Below are positions 26,204 through 29,692 of a DNA stretch of 64,000 nucleotides, piece by piece. The notes beneath the pieces are model-generated. The model was given only the letters and a program-made list of their open reading frames with translations. It ran no database searches and was not told the DNA's origin. Positions within the stretch are counted from its first letter, which is position 1. Every line of letters starts with the position of its first letter. The stretch is from Dermatophagoides farinae. Taxonomy: Eukaryota; Arthropoda; Arachnida; Sarcoptiformes; Pyroglyphidae. Both the position numbers and the translations under genes were made by a program. The stretch spans positions 5,580,001 to 5,644,000 of the forward strand of contig NC_134678.1 of assembly GCF_024713945.1 (NCBI RefSeq), in the 5' to 3' direction.

Positions 26204-26988
26204 ATTATTTTTATTATTAGTTCTAAACAAGTCGGTGAACCTGACTTTTATTTATGAATGTCAAATAATAAAAAAAAAATTTCGGATGATTCATTCCCTC
26301 CAATTCCCTTTTCGACATCATCAATATGATTATGATAATAATGAATAAAAATTTCAGTTTAGGACAATTAAAAATTAAAAATCAATTCATATATGAATTG
26401 GTGGGAAAAAAAATTGAATAACAAAAAAAGAATAGACATCAGAATTCGTTGAATTCATTTCATTTTAAGACACACAATTTCATTTTTGTTGCTTGTTTTG
26501 TTCTAATTCTTGGGGCGAGGGGGATTCATAGAATTTTTTTTTGTTGCTCTTTCGATTTTGTATTTGTATTTTATCCACATCTACATCATTATCCATATTT
26601 AAATAATCCATTCTAATCTCTGTATGCGTTATTCTTGAACCAGAAAAAAAATCGTCAATTACCATTGCATAATAATAACAGCCAGCCCACACACACACAG
26701 GGTGGTTTTCTATTTCATCTGTCATCAAATGGGCTGGTAAGATTTTGGGCTATGGGGGGAGCTATGCATGATTATAAATAAGTATTGAAAAAAGATTGCT
26801 CATGCACGATATGATGATGATTATCATCATCACAAACAAAAAAAGGTTGTGCAAAGATATTCTATTCATCTGGAACTAATGCTACCATCTATTATTATAG
26901 AATTTAAACTAATCGAGAATTCTCATTTTTTTCGTCTTGCTCATTTTTTGTTGTTGTTGTTGTTGTTGTTGATCGATTATTCAACCTG
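23024..26988. other. 4-kb gene-free, microsatellite-rich region
   Basis: Poly-A/T runs, CA, GA, GAT and CAA microsatellites dominate; several ORFs here (for example 23312-23689 and 25593-25817) are translations of simple repeats and are not supported as genes. A run of five-base ATATG units lies near 24820-24840 and a GAT/ATG run at 26171-26203. No RNA gene was recognised. Confidence 0.5.
26171..26203. repeat. ATG/GAT trinucleotide microsatellite
   Basis: Uninterrupted run of about eleven ATG units in noncoding sequence; the same triplet recurs throughout the window, including inside coding exons, where it makes Ser, Asp or His runs. Confidence 0.9.
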
Positions 26989-27003
26989 CACAGAGAAAAA
27001 AGC

Positions 27004-27395
27004 AGGTAGTGTACTATTCGATTTGGTAGTGTACAAATGGTAGTGCACACTACCAAATGTATAAGTACTTAACAATTAGGTAGTGTACTATTCGATTTGG
27101 TAGTGTACAAATGGTAGTGCACACTACCAAATGAATAAGTACTTAACAATTAGGTAGTGTACATTACTAGTTGGTAGTGTGCAAATGGTAGTGCACACTA
27201 CCAAATGAATAAGTACTTAACAATTAGGTAGTGTGCAAATGGTAGTGCACACTACCAAATGAATAAGTACTTAACAACTAGGTAGTGTACACGACCTCAG
27301 CTAGGTAGTGTACACGACCTCAGCTAGGTAGTGTACACGACCTCAGCTAGGTAGTGTACACGACCTCAACTAGGTAGTGTACACTATCATTTTTG
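27004..27395 (+). repeat. Left subterminal array: 74-bp and 23-bp tandem units
   Basis: Three 74-bp units start at 27004, 27078 and 27152; a 54-bp shortened unit starts at 27226. Four 23-bp units start at 27280, 27303, 27326 and 27349, and a partial one at 27372. All begin AGGTAGTGTRC. The long units contain the near-palindrome GGTAGTGCACACTACC (7-bp arms, 2-bp centre) and share a tail ending AAGTACTTAACAATT. Confidence 0.95.
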
Positions 27396-28317
27396 AAAGT
27401 AGTTTACAACAATTTAAAAAATTACAACATTATAACATTGTCTATGAACGGCATTAAATATATTTCATACATGTATTGACTTATAATTGCAACAACTATA
27501 AAAATGCCCAATCATCATACTCTGTTTCAAAAAATTTCAACATTGAATTTTTTCATGTTCGAAATGTTTAACTTTGATATTTTTTCTATTTTTTTGCCAT
27601 GGTAAATAGTAAGTAGCTGATTGATTTTTGGAGCAAATATGTAACAATGTTTTGTTGTTATTGAACATATTGTAAAATATTGGGGCATTTATTCATTTAT
27701 TTATTAAAAAATCAATTAATATTTTTACAAATATCTCTAATCTCTAATATACGTAGGTTAATATTATTTTTTGTAAAAAGATAAAATATTTGAACAAGTT
27801 CTGGTTTCCTAAAAACGAAATGAATATTTTATCGTTTTTGAGTTCATATATGTTGAAACTAAAGACGTGACTTTTGTCCCATTAAATCCAAGAGTATGAA
27901 GACAAAGACTTTTGATATGAATAATGGTATGTATCTGAATTGATTAATGCTAACGACAAATATCTTTCAGTTTATTATTCTGGTCTTAAATCGAATTCAA
28001 TATTGGCCAAATTTCAATTAAAGAGAACCAGACAAAGTTTTGTTTTTGACCCACGAATAAGCTTGAAAGTTAACCAGATACATTCTATAAGCATTCGACG
28101 ATAAACAATTAGTAAATATCTCCGATATAATTACTTGTATATACTAGAATCGATTAACAAAACCCATAACTAATTGTTTTTAATTTTTAGCCATCGATCT
28201 TGAAATCTAAAACTGGAACCTCTGAATTTCAATCAAAACCATTATCTTGAAATGACTGTAGTTTTTCTCGTTAACCGAAAATAGAATAAGAATATCTTTC
28301 ATACAAACACTGATATG

Positions 28318-28544
28318 TATAGGGGTAAATAAAGAAATCAAATCACGTTTGAATCATCGATACAAACACAGGTATTTTTATTTATATTTTTTTCTAATAT
28401 TTTTAACTTATTGTAATTGTTGTTGTTTTTTTTTCTTTTTCTTTCTCTTTTTTTCTAATATTTTTTTTCTTTTTCTTTCTCTTTTTTTTCTAATATTTAC
28501 ATGTTTTTCCCCCTTTTTTTGTTAAGATATAGGGGTAAATAAAG
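28318..28544. repeat. Direct repeat pair with duplicated pyrimidine tract
   Basis: ATAGGGGTAAATAAAG occurs at about 28319 and 28529, roughly 210 bp apart. Between the copies a T/C-rich block ending TCTAATATT is itself duplicated. It lies in the interior of the TIR element. A function is not evident; each copy contains an AATAAA. Confidence 0.75.
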
Positions 28545-28964
28545 TTTATTTAAAAAAAAACAAACAGGTATGTAATTGAATTGAAAATCCACGGTTACAA
28601 CTAATCCTTTTCAATTATTTAGTATAATGCCATGTAGTCAAATCTCTCAATGCCGCTGATATGATTCGAATTGCCATATTAACATATTTTTGGGATTTGT
28701 AAACTCGGACATTGTGTTGAAAACATTTAGAACTTGGAGAACGGAACAATATATCTTTTCTATTGGACAACAAAAATTCATACCATAAAATGTTGGATTT
28801 TGGATCAGCATAATACAATTTGTGCATTATCATGATATTTTGTTTTTAAAAATAATATATACTTCATTTATTATTCATTTAATTTTGCAATAAAATTTAA
28901 ATTCAATACAAATAATGAAGAGGAGGTCGAAAGGGTTAAAAAGGGGGAGAGGTCAAAAATCAAA

Positions 28965-29190
28965 GTAGTGTACTAGCTGATTTGGTAGTGTACTATTCGA
29001 TTTGGTAGTGTACTATTCGATTTGGTAGTGTACTATCGATTTTGGTAGTGTACTATCGATTTTAGTAGTGTACAATCGATTTTAGTAGTGTACTATCGAT
29101 TTTGGTAGTGTACTAGCTGATTTGGTAGTGTACTAGCTGATTTGGTAGTTTCGCCACTCCACTACGATTTAGTAGTGTACACACCAGGCT
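28965..29190 (+). repeat. Right subterminal array: ~20-bp units
   Basis: About ten copies of a 20-bp unit of the form GTAGTGTACTAnnnGATTTTG follow one another, with the variable part AGCTGA, TTCGA or TCGAT. The array ends in a degenerate GTAGTTTCG unit and GTAGTGTACACACC next to the terminal repeat. Confidence 0.93.
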
Positions 29191-29692
29191 ATTTTTTTCT
29201 CTGTGTGTGTATTTGTGTGAGTGTTCTGTTGTGTTGTGTCTGTGATATATAGAAGTTATAACGGAAAAAATAAAATTAAAATCCACTTAAACTTGCAAAT
29301 CAATAAAAAAAATTGCGTCGTCGTCGTCATTCTTATCATCAATAAAATTGTACAAGTGTAATTTCTCATTTTGAAGGTAAACTTTTTGATTCATATACTG
29401 TGAAATAAATAACTATATTAACCACAAAATCGATTATTACGTGTGCATCAGAATCAAAAAAAAACTACGATCAAAAATTGTTACTACAATCTTTGTAATT
29501 TATAATTTTTACCCTTGGTTGTTTGAATCAAAAAAAAAATAATGTTTTGTGCAAAATATTCCAACAAAAGTTTCAATTGATTCATTCAATTCGTTTCATT
29601 GGTTTGTTATTAATATTTTTCAAATCCAATTTATTTCATTATGTTAATGATTATTCTTAGTTTATTTTTTATAGTTTTCTTCTGGTTCCATT

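Follow-up and report, generated by a model that had tools for sequence, protein, structure and literature searches.

A complete transposable element lies at positions 26989-29205 of the window, which is the 64,000-nucleotide stretch G000:C2:5580001-5644000 of the 62.4-Mb, 22-contig genome of Dermatophagoides farinae. A group-2 allergen exon in this genome (L062) agrees with that host: over 108 residues it differs at two from Der f 2 in the PDB (239.8 bits), and the best Der p 2 entry scored 218.5 bits. It has inverted ends, inside which stand two unlike GGTAGTG arrays (Table 1). The terminal sequence CACAGAGAAAAAA matched exactly at two places in the whole window, namely, the two ends of the element; with up to two mismatches it was found at 19 places, against 4.8 expected. 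The array sequence GGTAGTGTAC, with up to one mismatch, occurred at 35 places, every one within the element, against 0.65 expected in shuffles.

Table 1. Features of the element, in window positions
Feature	Position	Strand	Remarks
Left 2-bp target site duplication (TG)	26987..26988	.	2-bp match in 12 of 12 full copies
Left terminal inverted repeat CACAGAGAAAAAA	26989..27001	+	Identical in 11 of 12 full copies; L013 differs
Left subterminal GGTAGTG array, periods 74, 54 and 23 bp, orientation mixed	27004..27388	+	
Inner edge of left array	27367..27420	+	91% identical over 54 bp to L021
Interior without long reading frame	27389..28963	.	Common to 12 full copies, mostly unlike the L021 interior
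Piece like an AATAAA-plus-poly(A) tail	28378..28564	+	Also at L022, L025 and L027
Unique right inner flank and start of right array	28862..28991	+	96% over 130 bp in L021
Right subterminal array, period about 20 bp, words nearly all forward	28964..29180	+	
Right terminal inverted repeat CACAGAGAAAAAA	29193..29205	-	CACACA then A's in 10 of 12 full copies
Right 2-bp target site duplication (TG)	29206..29207	.	

Copies of the element and their target site duplications

A search of the genome with the whole element gave 57 matches, from which 20 stretches were taken for study. Twelve of these were full copies of 2,007-2,371 bp with both ends present: the window copy and L009-L019. The left end, CACAGAGAAAAAAGCA, was found in 11 of them; L013 has two extra bases there, and its end can be read as CAGAGAG or, two bases further out, as CACAGAGAG. 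The right end, read inward, was CACAGAGAAAAAAATAGCC in the window copy and L009, and CACACA followed by A's in the other ten. All 12 copies begin with CA and end with TG. The first-pass annotation had proposed an element with terminal inverted repeats (TIRs) and subterminal arrays, and had suggested a search for further copies bounded by the same ends. The 12 full copies, with matching left and related right ends, support that proposal, but CACAGAG at both ends, as it described them, is confined to the window copy and L009 and does not extend to the other ten.

One subfamily consists of the window copy and L009, which are 98.5% alike (24 substitutions in 1,574 columns, many of them in a T-rich run). 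This subfamily is 88.3-89.8% alike to the other ten copies in the interior, and those ten are 95.6-100% alike among themselves. The flanks, on the other hand, are unlike between copies: at most 44 of 80 bases were equal in any pair, and the pair that reached this value, L010 and L013, lies in CA repeats at both sites. Directly beyond the ends, all 12 copies showed a 2-bp match (TG, TA, GA, CA, TG, CA, CA, TG, TC, TT, TA and TA), and two was the only duplication length from 1 to 9 that fitted every copy. Longer matches were seen only in L013, L015 and L016; the duplications of L013 and L015 are uninformative because both copies sit in CA/TG dinucleotide repeats. Between different copies, the 2-bp flanks matched in 18 of 132 pairs, and none of 100,000 flank permutations reached 12 matches (best, 10). 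When the boundary was moved by 1-3 bases, 0 to 5 of the 12 copies still showed a 2-bp match. The target duplication, which the first-pass annotation had expected to emerge from a comparison of copies, is thus 2 bp in 12 of 12, two of them uninformative. The family has exact boundaries and consists of dispersed copies, many of them nearly identical, and it is best read as recently active.

Subterminal arrays, interior and insertion sites

Tandem Repeats Finder detected periods of 74, 54 and 23 bp in the left array (27004-27384) and of 20 bp in the right array (28965-29149), in agreement with the periods first read from the letters (74, 54 and 23 on the left, about 20 on the right). The arrays had also been described as pointing the same way, which holds for most words but not for a minority reversed at both ends. 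In the window copy, GTAGTG occurred 16 times forward and 4 times reverse at the left end, and 10 times forward and once reverse at the right end; across the 12 copies, the corresponding ranges were 10-21 and 2-7 at the left, and 9-12 and 1 at the right. A near-palindrome, GGTAGTGCACACTACC, lies within the left 74-bp unit. A two-word array pattern, searched genome-wide with up to two mismatches, gave 130 matches, and the reversed pattern gave none. The 100 listed of these 130 all fell in 14 loci, namely, the 12 full copies, a right-end fragment (L020) and a longer copy (L021); among them, no array stood outside the family.

Units of 20+54 (=74) bp make up the left array in all 12 copies, with an extra 54-bp step in nine and 23-bp units in 11 (none in L017). 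The steps of the right array measure 16-25 bp, most of them 18 or 20, except for the last, which is 47 bp in all 12 copies. Over 1,508 interior columns, three copies (L010, L011 and L015) showed zero substitutions and no more than one gap, and yet their left arrays measured 355, 429 and 281 bp, differing by multiples of 74, and their right arrays 289, 231 and 231 bp. Interiors free of substitutions, together with unlike array lengths, indicate that the number of array units changes faster than single bases, with the reservation that these lengths come from assembly sequence without reads and that their differences could partly be assembly artefacts. Agreeing interiors and differing arrays make the turnover of the arrays measurable. 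Asymmetric subterminal repeats, partly direct and partly inverted, are described as characteristic of CACTA elements (PMC2613891), so that the unlike arrays are less surprising than the first-pass annotation had thought.

In accordance with the first reading of the locus, we detected no code for a transposase in the window copy. Its longest internal stop-free stretch is 87 aa (73 to 94 aa across the 12 full copies), and none of 17 CMC-type frames matched the copy except for 33 codons of the inner flank, which are shared as DNA with L021. A simple deletion from L021 does not account for the interior of the 12 copies. The tail-like piece in Table 1, with its counterparts at L022, L025 and L027, reads as probably LINE-like, and two further short interior pieces match L023 and L028. 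All three counterparts have tails with AATAAA and poly(A). The poly(A) of L027 is directly followed by a CMC-type transposase stretch and preceded by a YADD motif, presumably that of a reverse transcriptase. A 76-aa stop-free stretch on the minus strand (window 28615-28845), with a partial match to a broken frame at L023, has the same length in 11 of the 12 full copies. The copies are so young that this kept length is no evidence of function.

The target dinucleotides were pyrimidine-purine in nine of the 12 copies, compared with 24% in 157 kb of comparison sequence (p = 3e-4), and (CA)7 or (TG)7 lay within 40 bases of six of the 12 insertion sites. Genome-wide, (CA)7 gave 77,408 overlapping matches on both strands. 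The 100 matches listed, all from one end of one contig, represent 33 arrays, which places about 2.9% of positions near an array (p = 5e-7); if each overlapping match is counted as an array of its own, the upper bound is 8.3% (p = 2e-4). A looser count, of (CA)4 or longer within 20 bases, gave seven of 12 against 1.1% in a small, non-random comparison sequence. L059 and L060 served only as background sequence. This CA/TG preference was noticed after the fact and on 12 copies. We regard it as a tentative and rather doubtful idea that the family is drawn to CA/TG microsatellites and that its end arrays are remade during transposition. Slippage on the arrays during gap repair after excision would lead one to expect array units to change faster than bases. 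If so, the arrays would record past transposition in an animal group, the dust mites, that is reported to be without Piwi proteins (PMC5805368). A recently moved family with exact boundaries also offers a clean marker by which transposon activity and silencing by small RNAs could be followed in this mite.

A longer copy and the classification of the family

The left end of the family and a nearly identical right end recur in the longer copy, L021 (C5:223501-226315; 2,815 bp). Compared with the window copy, its left 100 bp is 84% identical, and its right array and end are 70% identical over 283 columns; the unique sequence just inside each array is retained, in the same order (Table 1). Its interior differs from that of the 12 copies and contains a minus-strand frame of 217 aa. 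A longer copy encoding a transposase had been named in the first-pass annotation as a thing to look for, and L021 is such a copy in so far as this frame is a decayed, transposase-related remnant. We read L021 as an old, decayed member that probably once carried a transposase gene. It is without a target duplication (TT/AA) and has one base changed in the right terminal heptamer, so that the link from the family ends to a transposase passes through one decayed copy.

When the genome was searched with the L021 frame, 14 matches, the frame itself among them, fell at E up to 1; the lowest-ranking four were weak (E 0.05-0.2). The frame is identical to those of L043, L044, L045 and L047 at 47% over 169 aa, 59% over 121, 60% over 84 and 69% over 68, respectively. 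In these close relatives, NL and an R/K-rich sequence come after a DDF or DDY block. L045 and L047 keep CDN..LG..CREC, which fits the C(2)C of CMC transposases; the second D and the CxxC seen in these two are missing from the L021 frame, and the H(3-4)H of CMC transposases was identified neither in that frame nor in its relatives. Against Pfam, the L021 frame matched no family. The L044 frame matched Transposase_21 (tnp2) at E = 2.4e-4 and 20.8 bits, below the cut-off of 28.6, and was the only one of the four close relatives to match tnp2: L045 had no match, and L043 and L047 had weak matches to unrelated families (E about 0.01). L051, from a more distant lineage, matched tnp2 at E = 0.0068, also below the cut-off. 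A profile led by the L021 frame aligned with a 926-aa frame at L056 (E = 8.9e-5; probability 59.5%), and the alignment spans both D blocks and the CxxC. Genome searches by protein and by L021 DNA revealed no intact transposase with the family ends among the best candidates, and GTAGTGTAC was present in none of nine 9.9-kb stretches around the transposase relatives L043-L051. The family may therefore be stranded, or it may use the transposase of an element with other ends.

Taken together, the CA..TG ends, the 2-bp duplication and the CMC-type remnant in the longer copy allow a superfamily to be assigned with fair confidence, where the first-pass annotation could match none: this is very probably a non-autonomous animal DNA transposon of the CMC (EnSpm/CACTA) type. 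That the family is non-autonomous, as first proposed, is supported by a window copy without transposase code. CMC relatives are reported to have mostly CA..TG ends and duplications of 2-5 bp (PMC12730594). CA..TG termini with a short TIR, as described for the group (PMC12730594, PMC6004678), were present in all 12 full copies; the duplication, 2 bp in reported animal CACTA, was found in 12 of 12 (two uninformative) and not in L021; and subterminal repeat arrays, a further CMC character (PMC2613891), are present in the family.

The locus might be no mobile element at all but an array locus copied by segmental duplication, as the conspicuous tandem arrays and their unlike lengths between copies could suggest. 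This is scarcely credible, and we rejected it on the flanks, which are unlike from the base beyond the ends, and on the 2-bp duplications in 12 of 12 copies; the confinement of the array pattern to family loci, among the 100 of 130 matches listed, also speaks against it. A derivative of Tc1/mariner, hAT, Transib or Chapaev is very improbable. CAGAG and CACAG starts occur in several superfamilies, and duplications of 5 bp are expected for Transib and of 4 bp for Chapaev. The duplication here is 2 bp, with TA, as in Tc1/mariner, in just three of 12 full copies; a 5-bp match was found in one of 12 (L016); and 8- or 4-bp matches, as for hAT or Chapaev, were found only in L013 and L015, inside CA/TG repeats. 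The hAT reading of the CAGAGAA start was rejected on the absence of an 8-bp duplication outside such repeats. Mirage, the other CMC branch, makes 2-bp duplications, with which the length found here would be compatible.

More weight, though still little, belongs to a TIR transposon of another, possibly unnamed superfamily with 2-bp duplications, into which the L021 relic would have come as a nested CMC insertion. We consider this unlikely. It would agree with the single copy, itself without a duplication, that links the ends to a transposase, with the recurrence of L021 interior pieces elsewhere in the genome without family ends, and with the thin Pfam support for the L021 frame and its relatives; against it, the unique sequence next to the two arrays stands in L021 in the order of the window copy, and the ends and duplication length of the family agree with those reported for CACTA elements of animals (PMC12730594, PMC6004678).

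For a non-autonomous CMC element, a transposase made elsewhere, presumably by a CMC lineage, would recognise the CACAG..CTGTG ends and cut there. The subterminal GGTAGTG arrays may be occupied by a DNA-binding protein or by a transposase domain, by analogy with TNPA in En/Spm (PMC2613891). By cut-and-paste, the element would leave one site and enter another, with two bases duplicated there, and the family would in this manner have been moved in trans.

The kind of element is already known, a CMC non-autonomous family with asymmetric arrays; as a family in D. farinae, it may be new. By description, it resembles the CACTA transposon ENS1_Cis from Ciona savignyi and two MITEs, CMC-NA_1 and CMC-NA_2; all three have 5'-CAC..GTG-3' ends and a 2-bp duplication (PMC6004678), the TIRs being compared over the CAC. 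CMC-NA_1 and CMC-NA_2 are likewise non-autonomous, with no partner found according to that report; they are MITEs, whereas the mite family measures 2.0-2.4 kb and has large arrays. Asymmetric subterminal repeats, direct and inverted, are shared with plant En/Spm and Tgmt*, and in plant CACTA elements defective copies are described as moved in trans and the repeat word as differing between families; Tgmt* is unlike the mite family in its 3-bp duplication, its CACTA ends and its known coding copies (PMC2613891). In the literature, we found no report of the family; Repbase and Dfam lay outside the scope of this search, so that the 'undescribed' put forward as a possibility in the first-pass annotation is not established. 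One D. farinae assembly is reported to be very poor in DNA transposons, with 736 elements totalling 55,004 bp (PMC11074847), although in another assembly transposable elements are given as about 9.7% of the genome, DNA elements being the largest class (PMC8487952).

Other transposon-related sequences in the genome

A transposon of about 4.87 kb with the ends CCCTGGTAGTGCG was found at three loci: L056:1949-6813 (C1), L057 (C5) and L058 (C9). The L056 copy has an open frame of 926 aa, with a Pfam tnp2 match above the cut-off, and a frame of 236 aa on the opposite strand. Over 4,870 bp, L056 and L057 show 100% identity, and both have a TA duplication; the family is a candidate recently active CMC-type element. 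In L058, the frame is shorter (700 aa) and a duplication is absent. The 4.87-kb family shares the GGTAGTG word at its ends with the family in the window, and differs from it in its terminal sequence, in its TA duplication (two of three copies) and in its two frames.

Ends of a further type, CACAGAGAGAAAAAAT, lie near four transposase relatives (L045, L046, L049 and L050). Short, MITE-like inverted pieces of about 130 bp ending in CACAGAGAGAAAAAAT were found at L045:4472-4605 and L046:6417-6550; L050:4522 begins like these pieces, and L049 does not. This 16-base end, with up to one mismatch, gave 120 genome matches, compared with seven for the reversed control. Transposon relics are abundant in the region G000:C9:402900-432400, of about 30 kb, which includes L043, L058 and L049: it contains pieces of four CMC-type transposase lineages and what we take to be a gypsy-like reverse transcriptase. 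Finally, blocks at L044 (C7:2793100-2803000) and L046 (C7:2868400-2878300) lie about 75 kb from each other and are inverted relative to one another; they share >5 kb, at 99.8% identity over 3,355 bp and 93% over 1,204 bp, a tnp2-like frame included.
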